Shown one piece after another: positions 16,877 to 19,441 of a stretch of 27,727 nt of DNA. A model generated the notes under the pieces. The model did no database searches and was not told the origin of the DNA. It saw only the letters and a program-made list of their open reading frames with translations. Positions within the stretch are counted from its first letter, which is position 1, and the number at the start of each line of letters is the position of its first letter. Source of the DNA: a virus. The position numbers and the translations under genes were made by a program. The stretch covers positions 1 through 27,727 of IMG/VR virus record IMGVR_UViG_3300044630_004842. One strand, written 5' to 3'.

Positions 16877-16884
16877 TATTTATA
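16877..16884 (-). promoter_or_regulatory. T4-type late promoter for the giant structural gene
   Basis: On the minus strand this reads TATAAATA, a perfect match to the late promoter box recognised in T4-like phages by gp55-directed RNA polymerase. It lies 36 bases upstream of the ATG of the 3504-residue gene and directly behind the terminator of the tRNA island. That position is right for restarting transcription of the late fibre operon. Confidence 0.75.
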
Positions 16885-16888
16885 CAAT

Positions 16889-16914
16889 AAAACCCCTCCC
16901 GAAGGAGAGGTTTT
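16889..16914 (-). terminator. Intrinsic terminator ending the tRNA/cpeT island
   Basis: Read on the minus strand, AAAACC-T-CTCC / TTCG / GGAG-G-GGTTTT forms a hairpin with one internal mismatch, a stable C(UUCG)G tetraloop and a U-rich exit (TTTTATTG). UUCG-loop hairpins are typical intrinsic terminators in T4-like phages. It sits 43 bases past tRNA-Asn and just before the late promoter, insulating the island from the late genes. The A-rich/U-rich flanks are symmetrical, so it could also act on the other strand. Confidence 0.8.
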
Positions 16915-16956
16915 AAAGCACACGGAAGGTCTTTTGGTTCTTGGCAGTATCGCCAA

Positions 16957-17028
16957 CTGGAGTGGTGGGATTCGAACCTACGACCAATCGGTTAACAGCC
17001 GACCGCTCTACCACTGAGCTACACTCCA
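16957..17028 (-). tRNA. trnN: tRNA-Asn (anticodon GTT)
   Basis: The cloverleaf is complete: acceptor TGGAGTG paired with CACTCCA, D-arm GCTC/GAGC, anticodon stem GTCGG/CCGAT with loop CTGTTAA (anticodon GTT), and T-arm with TTCGAAT. One A-C mismatch is visible in the T-stem and the discriminator base is G. CCA is not encoded. A small hairpin (TTGGC/GCCAA, 16941-16956) follows the 3' end. The endonuclease VII-like gene ends three bases upstream, so the two are probably cotranscribed. Confidence 0.93.
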
Positions 17029-17031
17029 TTG

Positions 17032-17448
17032 TTATGTCAAATAATTTCCCTCAAGATAATTAAGTGCCTTTTTTACGCCTTCAATACTATCACCAAGTCT
17101 CCCAATACCAACATTACAATTATCACAAATAAAACCACGAATGGTTTCAGTTCCATGAATATGATCACAAACCAGCATTTGATCAGTTTTTCCACAACAA
17201 GCACAAGGAGTGCCCAGGGGTGGTGTTTTTAAATTATATTTTTTCTTCAATTTCTTAGAAGCTGAAGGATCTTTAACACCTCCTGGTTTTCTACATTCTT
17301 TACATTCATATCTAAAACCATTTTGTGTAGAATGATTTTTGTGATAAAAATCTTTAGTTAATGGTTTTTCTTTTTTACAATACCTACAAACTCTAGTTTG
17401 TACAGCTATTTCAGATTTTTCATTAAATAGAATTTCAAGAAGTGACAT
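17032..17448 (-). CDS. Endonuclease VII-type HNH nuclease, possible free-standing homing endonuclease
   Basis: 138 residues from ATG at 17446-17448. The N-terminal half has a zinc-finger-like pair of CxxC motifs (C21-R-Y-C24 and C49-K-E-C52) in a basic context. The C-terminal half is a classic recombination endonuclease VII core (T4 gp49 family): CACC at 82-85, DHIHG at 95-99 with the metal/catalytic Asp and His, RGFICDNCN at 104-112, and GRLGDS. All key positions are present, so it should be active. At 138 residues it is a little shorter than T4 gp49 (157). Nucleases of this type occur in phages as resolvases and as mobile homing nucleases; the setting, wedged between tRNA genes, favours the latter. 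It follows a 47-residue gene by 7 bases and has no clear ribosome site of its own, suggesting translational coupling. Confidence 0.9.
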   Translation of the reverse strand: MSLLEILFNEKSEIAVQTRVCRYCKKEKPLTKDFYHKNHSTQNGFRYECKECRKPGGVKDPSASKKLKKKYNLKTPPLGTPCACCGKTDQMLVCDHIHGTETIRGFICDNCNVGIGRLGDSIEGVKKALNYLEGNYLT

Positions 17449-17455
17449 GATTAAG

Positions 17456-17599
17456 TCAGAATTTGTCTTTTTGCTTCAATTTTACCCAATTAAGTAAATT
17501 ATAGTATTCAAATTTATCGTCAGATTCCTCCTTTGTTTGGATTAGGGTTTCTAGTGCCTCGATGACCATTTCGTGATCTTTCTTAGAAAGTAAGCTCAT
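17456..17599 (-). CDS. Small hypothetical protein, 47 residues
   Basis: ATG at 17597-17599 is preceded by a good Shine-Dalgarno (GAGGGT) 7 bases upstream, and the frame ends at TGA 17456-17458. The product (MSLLSKKDHEMVIEALETLI, then TKEESDD, FEYYNLLNWVKLKQKDKF) is charged and predicted mostly helical, with no Cys and no membrane segment. I do not recognise a family. It sits 7 bases upstream of the endonuclease VII-like gene, whose own start lacks a ribosome site. Both products begin MSLL. The strong ribosome site and real-looking amino acid composition support translation. Confidence 0.7.
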   Translation of the reverse strand: MSLLSKKDHEMVIEALETLIQTKEESDDKFEYYNLLNWVKLKQKDKF

Positions 17600-17607
17600 T
17601 TTTTACC

Positions 17608-17676
17608 CTCAACTTTTTTGACGATTTTTTACCGGGAATTTTTTTCCCGATTTCATGTATTTAGTTTTTGAATTTC
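17608..17676. repeat. Diverged 69-bp direct repeat, copy 1
   Basis: This segment aligns without gaps to 19793-19861; I count 53 of 69 matching bases (about 77%). The shared core includes GATTTTTTACC, AATTTTTT and CCGATTTC. In this copy the centre forms a hairpin (CGGGAA/TTCCCG with an A5 loop on the minus strand). It lies between tRNA-Leu(TAG) and the 47-residue gene. On the minus strand it contains CTAAATA (17658-17664), a possible weak late-promoter variant for the downstream pair of genes. Confidence 0.65.
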
Positions 17677-17693
17677 GGATTTGTAATCCGAAG

Positions 17694-17773
17694 TGCCCAA
17701 GAGAGGACTCGAACCTCCACGCCGAAGCACATGATCCTAAGTCATGCGTGTATACCAATTTCACCACTTGGGC
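17694..17773 (-). tRNA. trnL: tRNA-Leu (anticodon TAG)
   Basis: Class II tRNA of 80 bases: acceptor GCCCAAG/CTTGGGC with A discriminator, D-arm containing TTGGTA, anticodon loop CTTAGGA (anticodon TAG), a variable arm with a TTCG loop (TGC-TTCG-GCG), and T-arm GGAGG-TTCGAGT-CCTCT. All canonical Leu features, including the long variable arm and A73, are present. CCA is not encoded. It reads CUA and other CUN codons. Confidence 0.95.
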
Positions 17774-17777
17774 AGTG

Positions 17778-17815
17778 ACCCCTCTGTTTGAGCATCGTTG
17801 ATAGGCTTGAGGGGT
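17778..17815 (-). other. Spacer hairpin between tRNA-Leu(TAG) and the tRNA-like element
   Basis: ACCCCTC at 17778-17784 and GAGGGGT at 17809-17815 pair perfectly over 7 bp around a 24-base loop. The hairpin fills the spacer between two tRNA-type units. It has no U-tract on the minus strand, so it is more likely a processing or stabilising stem than a terminator. Function is inferred only from position. Confidence 0.4.
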
Positions 17816-17817
17816 GT

Positions 17818-17889
17818 TTTCCTGTCTGGGAATCGAACCCAGTTTCCATGTGTGTTGTCCACCCGTCCTTACCAATAGACTACCAGGAT
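17818..17889 (-). pseudogene. tRNA-like element with degenerate anticodon arm
   Basis: The D-arm (GTCT-ATTGGTAA-GGAC) and T-arm (CTGGG-TTCGATT-CCCAG) are intact, and the acceptor keeps a 5-bp core (TCCTG/CAGGA). The 22 bases between the arms do not make a normal anticodon arm. The best fit is GGGTG/CACAT with loop GACAACA, which has one mismatch, one wobble and A instead of the near-universal U at position 33. The acceptor ends also mismatch. I therefore call it a decayed tRNA rather than assign an amino acid. It could instead be a retained tRNA-like structure. Confidence 0.55.
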
Positions 17890-17896
17890 TTGTGGT

Positions 17897-17930
17897 AGGA
17901 GGGGGGAGCATCACCTTAAGCCCCCCTCTT
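17897..17930 (-). other. GC-rich hairpin upstream of the tRNA-like element
   Basis: GAGGGGGG (17899-17906) pairs with CCCCCCTC (17921-17928) over 8 bp, extended by a wobble and an A-T pair, around a 14-base loop. It is strikingly GC-rich in an AT-rich genome. No U-tract follows on the minus strand, so it is not a standard terminator; RNA processing is a guess. The rest of the spacer up to tRNA-Thr (17931-18059) has no convincing gene. It holds only a small hairpin TAGGC/GCCTA at 18034-18048. Confidence 0.45.
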
Positions 17931-18059
17931 TACTTCACTTGGACACAGAATACTAAGACCAAGGAGAGGTTTTGGTTCCTACATTTGGCGAGAAGATTCG
18001 GATATTTCCAACCCTTCCCCCTCGATCTCCTTCTAGGCTATCTGCCTAACGAGTATCGA

Positions 18060-18131
18060 AGCCCCCGATCTGATTCGAACAGACGACCAACGGTTTACAA
18101 AACCGTTGCTCTACCACTGAGCTACAAGGGC
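18060..18131 (-). tRNA. trnT: tRNA-Thr (anticodon TGT), 5' end overlapping cpeT
   Basis: Cloverleaf: acceptor GCCCTTG/CGGGGGC (two G-T wobbles), D-arm GCTC-AGTGGTA-GAGC, anticodon stem ACGGT/ACCGT with loop TTTGTAA (anticodon TGT), T-arm with loop TTCGAAT, and discriminator T. CCA is not encoded. Its first 10 bases are also the last codons and stop of cpeT, so the same bases serve a tRNA acceptor stem and a coding end. Confidence 0.94.
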
Positions 18132-18646
18132 ATTCTAGAAAATTCAAACCTACCATATTTAGAACCCCAGAGCTGATGTTTATGTTCAGCACAGAATCCT
18201 CGATCCATAACGTAATAGTGGGTTGGAGTCAACTCAATTTCGTTTTGGAGGTAGGTTTGACGACCATTCCATTCTACCATACAATCACAACCTTGAATAC
18301 CCCCCACGAATGAACTGGCTTTTGGAGTCATGAACACGTCACAACCACTCTTCAATTTTAGCACACTCTGGTCGATTTCGTCAAGCCTTTTGAAACCAGT
18401 ATAGTTTTCTTTATCAATCAATTCATAATTATAGATATGAATTTGACCGTTTTCTTCTTTTGGTTCAAGAACAAACTGACGATAAGGTTTATTTAATTGA
18501 TAATTGTATGCTTGTTCACCATAAATTAGACCATCACCCAAATTTACATGTGTTACCCTAATAAAGGCATACTTGCTTGGGTTAGAAAATGCTTGGATTT
18601 TGTTTTCGAATCGTCCTTCAATTAATCTAAAAAATTCTTTAATCAT
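18122..18646 (-). CDS. cpeT: CpeT/CpcT-like phycobiliprotein bilin lyase
   Basis: 174 residues from ATG at 18644-18646, which overlaps the previous stop (ATGATTAA). Family hallmarks run through the whole length: LIEGRFENKIQAFSNP at 8-23, LIYGEQAY at 40-47 followed by KPYRQFV at 53-59, GCDVFM at 101-106, FVGGIQGCDC at 113-122, WNGRQTYLQNEIEL at 126-139, DRGF at 148-151 and LWGSKYGRFEFSR at 159-171. CpeT/CpcT proteins attach phycoerythrobilin or phycocyanobilin to phycobiliprotein cysteines in cyanobacteria. Phage copies are auxiliary metabolic genes thought to affect light harvesting during infection. The gene looks complete, slightly shorter than host versions. Its last codons and TAG stop lie inside the tRNA-Thr acceptor stem. 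A longer in-frame start at 18685 is possible, but the overlap start fits family alignment better. It marks the host as a phycobilisome-bearing cyanobacterium or a relative. Confidence 0.9.
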   Translation of the reverse strand: MIKEFFRLIEGRFENKIQAFSNPSKYAFIRVTHVNLGDGLIYGEQAYNYQLNKPYRQFVLEPKEENGQIHIYNYELIDKENYTGFKRLDEIDQSVLKLKSGCDVFMTPKASSFVGGIQGCDCMVEWNGRQTYLQNEIELTPTHYYVMDRGFCAEHKHQLWGSKYGRFEFSRMPL

Positions 18647-18905
18647 CTTTAGGTAGTAACTCAGGATTTTCAAATTCCAATTCAAACATTAGCGGATGAG
18701 CCTCTTCCATCATCAAATAATTAGACCAAATAAACATGTCTTCATCATCAAAATCCCTATTAGATAGGGCTTCAGTTTGGACAGAAGGATGGTCTTGTAT
18801 GAGGGCAGGAAGTTCGTCAAAGGTATATGGCATACCTTGTATGAAATACATACGAACAACTTCTCCCATGTAAAAGCAATATGCTTGAGAAAGTGTGTAT
18901 TTCAT
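18639..18905 (-). CDS. Hypothetical acidic protein, 88 residues, coupled to cpeT
   Basis: ATG at 18903-18905 has GGA about 9 bases upstream; an in-frame GTG at 18917 is an alternative start. The product is acidic and rich in aromatics and Met (AYCFYMGEVVRMYFIQGMPY, then DDEDMFIWSNYLMMEEAHPL, ending ELLPKDD). It has no signal peptide or clear membrane helix. I do not recognise a family. Its stop overlaps the cpeT start, so it is probably cotranslated with cpeT and may be part of the same functional unit. It lies directly downstream of a 6-bp hairpin that follows tRNA-Leu(TAA). Confidence 0.75.
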   Translation of the reverse strand: MKYTLSQAYCFYMGEVVRMYFIQGMPYTFDELPALIQDHPSVQTEALSNRDFDDEDMFIWSNYLMMEEAHPLMFELEFENPELLPKDD

Positions 18906-18913
18906 AACATTTT

Positions 18914-18934
18914 CCACTATGATTTATTTAGTGG
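18914..18934 (-). other. Hairpin between tRNA-Leu(TAA) and the 88-residue gene
   Basis: CCACTA (18914-18919) and TAGTGG (18929-18934) pair perfectly over 6 bp around a 9-base AT-rich loop. The minus-strand loop region reads TAAATAAATCA, partly resembling a late-promoter box. The stem covers the region just upstream of the start codon, so it could be a tRNA 3' processing element or could limit ribosome access. Neither is shown. Confidence 0.4.
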
Positions 18935-18936
18935 AA

Positions 18937-19009
18937 TACCCGTGGTCGGATTCGAACCGACACTGGAGGGATTTTAAGTCCCCTGTCTCTGCCGTTGGAC
19001 TACACGGGC
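18937..19009 (-). tRNA. tRNA with TAA (Leu) anticodon on a short-variable-arm body
   Basis: Cloverleaf: acceptor GCCCGTG/CACGGGT (G1-T72 wobble) with A discriminator, D-arm GTCC..AGAC with one mismatch, anticodon stem GGGGA/TCCCT with loop CTTAAAA (anticodon TAA, reads UUA), variable loop of only five bases (CCAGT), and T-arm GTCGG-TTCGAAT-CCGAC. Bacterial tRNA-Leu normally has a long variable arm, so the amino acid identity is uncertain although the tRNA itself is well formed. CCA is not encoded. Confidence 0.88.
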
Positions 19010-19053
19010 TTGTGTATGTGACAATTGTAGCAGGTTTTGCTCAGATTGTCAAG

Positions 19054-19126
19054 TGCTCCTTGAGGGGATCGAACCCACCTTAGCCGAATTATGAGTTCGG
19101 TGCATTCGCCAGATTGCTAAAGGAGC
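19054..19126 (-). tRNA. tRNA-Met or tRNA-Ile2 (anticodon CAT)
   Basis: Cloverleaf: acceptor GCTCCTT/AAGGAGC with A discriminator, D-stem GCA/TGC, anticodon stem CCGAA/TTCGG with loop CTCATAA (anticodon CAT), and T-arm with loop TTCGATC and one T-T mismatch. The G1-C72 pair rules out a standard initiator tRNA. Elongator Met and lysidine-modified Ile2 share this anticodon loop and cannot be separated by eye; in an AT-rich phage an AUA-reading Ile2 is a real possibility. Confidence 0.92.
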
Positions 19127-19130
19127 AAGG

Positions 19131-19218
19131 TACGAGTGGGTGGATTCGAACCACCTCAAAGCCGCTAATCTGGCGGAAAGAGTTTATAAGACTCCTCTGA
19201 CTACCAAGTCTCACTCGC
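19131..19218 (-). tRNA. Atypical class II tRNA with TAT anticodon
   Basis: 88 bases: acceptor GCGAGTG/CACTCGT (G1-T72 wobble) with A discriminator, anticodon stem GGAGT/ACTCT with loop CTTATAA (anticodon TAT, Ile AUA), a long variable arm with stem CCGC/GCGG, and a perfect T-arm GGTGG-TTCGAAT-CCACC. The D-arm is abnormal: three pairs (GAC/GTC), a six-base loop, and A rather than T at position 8. Long variable arms belong to Leu, Ser and Tyr tRNAs in bacteria, so a TAT anticodon here is unexpected. Identity is uncertain. Confidence 0.8.
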
Positions 19219-19242
19219 TTGAATTGATACCAATCTATGGTA

Positions 19243-19374
19243 TCATATTCGTCCCGTTGCTGACAAGTGGTTTTTCAATGCTTGTCTACGCTTTTTAGCA
19301 GCTCTCAATGCCTGGGGCTTGAGGGTACGCTTCTGTTCTTTTTTGCTGTGGTGTTGCCAATTTGGAACTTTCAT
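19243..19374 (-). CDS. Small highly basic peptide, 43 residues
   Basis: ATG at 19372-19374 has an excellent Shine-Dalgarno (GAGGAAACG, then ATG), and the frame closes at TGA 19243-19245. The product begins MKVPNWQHHSKKEQKRTLKP and continues QALRAAKKRRQALKNHLSATGRI. It contains 13 Lys/Arg and no acidic residue other than one Glu, and is probably helical. I do not recognise a family. It is the first gene after the sigma70-type promoter (ATG about 27 bases below the -10 box), so it should be expressed early and strongly. Its composition suggests binding to RNA or DNA. That it leads a tRNA operon makes an RNA role an attractive but untested idea. Confidence 0.78.
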   Translation of the reverse strand: MKVPNWQHHSKKEQKRTLKPQALRAAKKRRQALKNHLSATGRI

Positions 19375-19400
19375 CGTTTCCTCGACCCGTGTATGTATGT

Positions 19401-19429
19401 ATAATAGCAGCTTTGAGCTGGTCTGTCAA
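19401..19429 (-). promoter_or_regulatory. Sigma70-type early promoter for the tRNA/cpeT island
   Basis: On the minus strand, TTGACA (19424-19429) and TATTAT (19401-19406) are separated by exactly 17 bases. The -35 is a perfect match and the -10 differs from consensus at one base. It lies just past the end of the 106-residue gene and upstream of the 43-residue gene. The spacer contains a perfect inverted repeat CAGCT-CAA-AGCTG (19408-19420), a possible operator. Early genes of T4-like phages use host sigma70-type promoters, so the island is predicted to be expressed early. Confidence 0.82.
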
Positions 19430-19441
19430 CCCCCTGTGCCA

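Follow-up and report, generated by a model that had tools for sequence, protein, structure and literature searches.

The abiF RNA is the RNA antitoxin of AbiF, a HEPN toxin, in an arrangement that resembles type III toxin-antitoxin systems, and AbiF has been proposed to be an RNA-antitoxin-controlled forerunner of Cas13. In this study, we describe an abiF RNA that is encoded without its toxin in a transfer RNA (tRNA) island of a cyanomyovirus. The stretch of DNA analysed (the window) covers positions 1 to 27,727 of the IMG/VR virus record IMGVR_UViG_3300044630_004842. In C. difficile, the abiF RNA RCd22 binds AbiF and neutralises it both in cis and in trans; breakage of the RCd22 stem abolishes neutralisation, whereas swapped paired bases are tolerated (PMC12373285). 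The RNA of the window shares its family and its stem and loop layout with the RNA of this AbiF/Abi_2 (AbiD/F) system, but it differs by the absence of an AbiF gene, by a single motif and by its place in the tRNA array of a T4-like phage instead of 5' of a toxin gene.

The nearest concept is that of the RNA anti-CRISPRs (Racr, solitary repeat units), which are likewise solitary phage copies of a defence RNA without the effector and which are thought or shown to sequester that effector (PMC10651486). The targets of Racr RNAs are Cas proteins, whereas the RNA of the window would target the AbiF toxin and is placed in tRNA arrays. An abiF small RNA has been published, without a function, for cyanophage S-CREM1 and is an orphan in a cyanomyovirus like the one described here; the accessible part of that account is silent on its distance of 4 nucleotides (nt) to tRNA-Gly and on its recurrence in AbiF-less phages (PMC9964418). 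The accessible part of Sullivan et al. 2010 already names a hot spot 'near gp5 with tRNAs', which agrees with the window in the vicinity of gp5, the tRNAs and the variable genes, but describes no RNA cargo such as the abiF RNA (PMC3037559). The tRNA cluster of phage T4 also combines extra stable RNAs with an endonuclease gene (RNA C, RNA D and the homing endonuclease SegB); in contrast to the RNA of the window, RNA C and RNA D gave no match to abiF and were rejected as abiF RNAs. In a literature search whose coverage left out most subscription papers and bioRxiv preprints, no paper was found in which orphan abiF RNAs are connected with phage tRNA arrays or with counter-defence. The hot spot and the S-CREM1 copy were already known, and what appears to be new is the recurrent orphan abiF RNA in phage tRNA arrays, read here as counter-defence.

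The abiF RNA lies at 17778-17814 on the minus strand, is absent from the features listed in an earlier note on this DNA, and matches Rfam family RF03085 over its full length (model positions 1-37), with 50.7 bits against a cut-off of 37 and with standard pairs throughout. It folds into a hairpin that consists of a 6-bp outer stem, a 3-bp inner stem and a conserved loop and flank. Among 25 distinct copies from records without Abi_2, seven of the nine pairs show compensatory changes and 98.7% of the cells are paired, values that were reached by none of 500 shuffles. In S-CREM1, S-SRM01 and PT2, for example, AGC/GCU of the inner stem is replaced by UGC/GCA. Both the score and the covariation of the stems place the RNA in RF03085.

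The corresponding toxin gene is missing. No Abi_2 domain (PF07751) was found in the record of the window, and among the 87 IMG/VR viral stretches in which the abiF core pattern matched, PF07751 was absent from 85 records, many of which are fragments. The other two records contain canonical cassettes, in which the RNA lies 113-121 nt ahead of Abi_2 and no tRNAs are present; therefore, the search does detect a normal cassette. A hidden Markov model built from bacterial AbiF proteins returned the same two viral positives only. PF07751 was also absent from the complete genomes of S-CREM1 (one abiF site, 52.2 bits), S-SZBM1, S-SRM01 and the mycobacteriophages Redno2 and Bromden, which carry the RNA above the cut-off, as well as from Acinetobacter phage Acj61 and the T7-like Aeromonas phage PT2 (RNA above the cut-off). 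Because the toxin gene was looked for and is absent beside the RNA, both in the window and in the complete carrier phages, the locus is not classed as an AbiF system.

Instead of a toxin gene, the hairpin keeps company with tRNAs. In the window, it lies between a tRNA-like RNA, a few nt upstream, and tRNA-Leu(UAG), which begins 4 nt (CACT) downstream. Across 63 non-redundant viral loci, defined as loci with distinct flanks, the hairpin directly adjoins a tRNA in 31 cases, compared with 1.6 ± 1.2 upon random placement in the same loci, and none of 125 bacterial copies flanks a tRNA. The hairpin and CACT precede Leu(UAG), Gly(UCC), Ala and Val tRNAs in different cyanophages and thus represent a unit that has been joined to different tRNAs. 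In mycobacteriophage Bromden, the hairpin occupies the gap between tRNA-Gly and tRNA-Lys. The orphan RNA, with its covarying structure and its place beside tRNAs, recurs in many unrelated phages.

Two individual phages show further details. In S-SRM01, an unannotated tRNA-Arg(UCU)-like sequence is found 4 nt past the abiF hairpin (L233, about 1541-1620). In Acj61, the hairpin (L241, 2002-2050) is followed by a T-run and TATAAATA, and it may double there as a terminator before a late promoter.

We consider it fairly probable that the RNA is a phage-borne antitoxin that is freed by tRNA processing and neutralises the AbiF of the host. The hairpin would be co-transcribed with the tRNAs from sigma70 promoters soon after infection. 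RNase P, acting on the 5' end of the tRNA that follows, and the 3'-end processing of the preceding RNA would then release a hairpin of about 40 nt. In AbiF-carrying hosts, the free hairpin would bind the AbiF HEPN ribonuclease and hold it inactive, and so stand in for the labile antitoxin of the host. As in Racr, a solitary defence RNA without its effector lies outside coding sequence, with promoters (P1 and P2, listed below) upstream on the same strand, and by this analogy we propose that the abiF RNA works like RNA-based counter-defence.

AbiF together with an abiF-like RNA occurs in some cyanobacteria and actinobacteria. On plasmids of Synechocystis PCC 6714 and B12, an Abi gene is preceded by a hairpin with the same layout of outer and inner stem, a 3' CUCAAA and a longer apical stem. 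The search for AbiF in plasmids gave cyanobacterial cases, with no Synechococcus among the matches listed. In the Gordonia effusa family (actinobacteria), Abi_2 was found in 36 of 201 genomes, and the RNA scored above the cut-off at 4 of the 12 loci examined. On the phage side, the RNA varies between close relatives of the window. The IMG/VR relative L093, with 98% identity in the hub protein, carries a loop that is longer by 11 nt and folds into an apical-stem variant in the manner of the Synechocystis RNA, and in L091 and Sf-FR1 there is no hairpin at this spot. Such variation at one spot fits an arms race between toxin and antidote, but is only suggestive.

Several points weigh against an antitoxin function. 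The timing of transcription, the processing and the inhibition of AbiF are steps that we infer from the sequence. The tested antitoxin RCd22 carries two motifs and the phage RNA only one. The Synechocystis RNA upstream of AbiF differs from the RNA of the window in its apical loop and reaches 29.7 bits, below the Rfam cut-off. The evidence on the host side comes from Synechocystis plasmids and the Gordonia effusa family. Copies were gathered by an exact core pattern, which inflates the identity of the core; since copies found by BLAST or by the Rfam model (S-CREM1, S-SRM01, Bromden, Acj61 and PT2) show the core with modest variation, its conservation is real but not absolute. Finally, AbiF is encoded within 1 kb downstream in 69 of 113 evaluable bacterial copies, and orphans are not confined to phages, because the other 44 also lack a nearby AbiF. 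These AbiF-less bacterial copies (among L097-L215) belong to Bacteroidales and others, and some stand directly before genes that are DinD-like or RhuM-like by eye.

The fixed distance of 4 nt to the following tRNA and the CACT spacer of most cyanophage copies would also suit a processing or stability element of the tRNA operon, i.e., a 5' leader with a role in guiding RNase P or in stopping exonucleases, whose resemblance to abiF would be incidental. We regard this as unlikely. Such a leader has no need for a loop and flank of 20 nt with a match to RNAs that accompany AbiF in other phyla, some of the phage copies are found 3' of tRNAs or at a distance from them, and most tRNAs in the same phage arrays have no such leader. 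Even less credit is given to the possibility that a phage AbiF cassette once existed here and has decayed to an RNA without a present role. The full cassette still exists in two phage records and the presence of the RNA among relatives is patchy, but the strong compensatory change and the conserved core across very different phages, the lack of any Abi_2 trace in complete carrier genomes and the recurrent fusion to different tRNAs all argue against such a remnant. That the hairpin is nothing but a transcription terminator or attenuator is very improbable, since a T-run follows the stem in L002, L018, L056, L067 and Acj61, whereas the window and most cyanophages have CACT and a tRNA at this place and no T-run.

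The putative RNA antitoxin is part of a compact cluster of tRNA, cpeT and endonuclease VII genes at 16877-19429 on the minus strand of the window. The cluster sits between a baseplate-hub gene, encoding a 401-amino acid (aa) 'baseplate hub and tail lysozyme' (PHROG 4540), and the gene of a giant tail fibre (3504 aa, PHROG 4527). From head to tail, its features are:

19401-19429, minus strand: sigma70-type promoter P1 at the island head, TTGACA-17-TATTAT, 11/12 match to consensus
19243-19374, minus strand: 43-aa basic protein, encoded first in the island, with homologues in L090/L093/L091, S-RIM32 and S-PM2
19129-19218, minus strand: class II tRNA-Ile(UAU) (ARAGORN); variable-arm hairpin with conserved loop C[A/C]GATTA
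19053-19126, minus strand: tRNA-Met(CAU) (ARAGORN, Rfam)
19024-19052, minus strand: second sigma70-type promoter P2, TTGACA-17-TACAAT, with TG preceding the -10
18937-19009, minus strand: tRNA-Leu(UAA) (ARAGORN, Rfam)
18639-18917, minus strand: 92-aa protein, function unassigned (PHROG 4134)
18122-18685, minus strand: CpeT-like protein (PF06206, 1e-39)
18060-18131, minus strand: tRNA-Thr(UGU) (ARAGORN, Rfam)
17818-17889, minus strand: non-decoding tRNA-like RNA with GACAA loop; 26.3 bits to RF00005, below cut-off
17778-17814, minus strand: orphan abiF RNA (RF03085, 50.7 bits, gathering cut-off 37)
17693-17773, minus strand: tRNA-Leu(UAG), beginning 4 nt (CACT) after the abiF hairpin
17456-17599, minus strand: 47-aa open reading frame, read from sequence
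17032-17448, minus strand: endonuclease VII-like protein, 138 aa (PF02945, 3e-13)
16957-17028, minus strand: tRNA-Asn(GUU) (ARAGORN, Rfam)
16889-16914 (approximate), minus strand: UUCG-loop intrinsic terminator, CCTCTCC-TTCG-GGAGG-TTTTA
16877-16884, minus strand: TATAAATA, T4-like late promoter that serves the fibre gene and lies outside the island

The pattern TTGACA-N17-TANNAT occurs twice in the 27.7-kb window, compared with 0.23 expected, and both occurrences are on the minus strand inside the island. A P70-like site is also present at the P1 position in the IMG/VR relatives L090, L093 and L091, and P2 is kept upstream of tRNA-Leu(UAA) in the same three relatives and in S-PM2. TATAAATA is found once in the window; because 3.1 copies are expected by chance, its number was rejected as evidence and its position alone is informative. 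It lies 37 nt from the fibre ATG and is kept ahead of the fibre gene in relatives. The earlier note had described an early-type island among late tail genes, with cpeT, endonuclease VII, five tRNAs and one class II tRNA, a near-consensus sigma70 promoter at the head, a UUCG-loop terminator at the tail and a late promoter past it. This layout was recovered, with six tRNAs called by ARAGORN (Asn(GUU), Leu(UAG), Thr(UGU), Leu(UAA), Met(CAU) and class II Ile(UAU)) and with P2 as a promoter that the note had not listed. Early expression of the island is plausible. Between the tRNA-like RNA and tRNA-Thr(UGU), 170 nt on the minus strand (17890-18059) have no recognised gene, are partly conserved in L090 and L093, and contain a GGGGGG...CCCCCC hairpin and a TGGAAAT motif shared with L091; this stretch may hold further small RNAs.

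When the genes, tRNAs and motifs of the window were mapped onto relatives, the tRNA/cpeT cluster was found between the hub and fibre genes, as in the window, in Sf-FR1, S-PM2, S-RIM32 and four different IMG/VR relatives (L090, L093, L091/L094 and L095), and tRNA clusters were found at equivalent places in S-RIM8, S-SZBM1, DSL-LC03 and S-SRM01. At the borders, P70-like sites and a box of the late type are present again. No empty site was present among the relatives examined; the slot is always filled and only the cargo varies. Beyond the window, endonuclease VII was found in its nearest relatives only (60-97% identity). Elsewhere, the slot contains an HNH endonuclease in DSL-LC03, a 'DNA endonuclease' in S-RIM32 and endonuclease V in S-SZBM1, and in Sf-FR1 it has no endonuclease and lacks tRNA-Met, tRNA-Ile and the tRNA-like RNA. 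Endonuclease VII is dispensable cargo of the slot. The pattern of endonucleases fits variable, perhaps homing-like, cargo and does not demonstrate mobilisation.

These observations bear on the proposal of the earlier note, in which the 2.5-kb island as a whole is an early-expressed, moron-like cassette that the endonuclease VII-like gene may have mobilised. The cassette does have its own promoters and terminator, recognised by sequence matches only, and cargo has been gained and lost among relatives. However, a discrete insertion with an empty site in relatives was not found, the same slot and boundaries exist even in distant cyanomyoviruses, endonuclease VII is confined to the nearest relatives, with other endonucleases or none elsewhere, and the locus is a known hot spot. 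The synteny comparison that the note had suggested thus supports gain and loss of cargo and speaks against insertion, and we consider the proposal as a whole improbable; its mobilisation by endonuclease VII was not upheld. Because slot and borders are shared, the cargo is variable and the hot spot is published, the locus is seen as an old cargo slot with turnover and not as one inserted moron. We identify the island with the gp5-proximal tRNA hot spot of cyanomyoviruses, in which tRNAs and variable genes adjoin the gp5-type hub/lysozyme gene and in which a fixed, promoter-equipped slot changes its cargo.

Two other RNAs of the island are unusual. The RNA at 17818-17889 had been taken for a relic tRNA, but is a conserved structured RNA with unannotated homologues in S-PM2, S-RIM8, S-RIM32, DSL-LC03, S-CREM1 and S-SZBM1 (L218, L221-L225). 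In 22 distinct copies, compensatory changes affect 10 of 19 pairs, and 99.5% of the cells are paired. Acceptor, D and T arms are kept; in the copy of the window, the acceptor stem ends in a mismatch. All four pairs of the anticodon-like stem, which is short, covary and close a conserved 5-nt GA[C/T]AA loop with a bulged A. The 7-nt loop with U33 of a decoding tRNA is absent, and the RNA cannot have a normal anticodon loop. ARAGORN calls some homologues tRNA-Leu(CAA), and a dead tRNA of this type was rejected because the covarying stem closes a 5-nt loop. The class II tRNA-Ile(UAU) has homologues in S-SRM01 (95.5%) and S-SKS1 (86%), and tRNA-Ile(UAU) genes with a variable-arm hairpin are present at 19129-19218 (minus strand) of the window, in L238 (2501-2588), in L239 (1499-1584) and in L240, L011, L047, L059 and L067. 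The stem of the variable arm differs compensatorily between tRNA bodies and its loop keeps to C[A/C]GATTA. An assignment as tRNA-Sec was rejected (34.1 bits, below the cut-off of 47; anticodon UAU). It is conceivable, though doubtful, that tRNA islands serve as stores for RNA counter-defence, in which the abiF RNA, the GACAA RNA and tRNA-Ile(UAU) would all be protein-binding decoys, made via tRNA transcription and maturation and swapped like cassettes that track the toxins of the host.

If the abiF RNA is indeed a phage-borne antitoxin, AbiF would exert real selection on the lytic phages that infect cyanobacteria, mycobacteria, Acinetobacter and Aeromonas. RNA-based counter-defence would then reach beyond CRISPR, and there would be a reason other than codon usage for the presence of non-tRNA hairpins in phage tRNA arrays.

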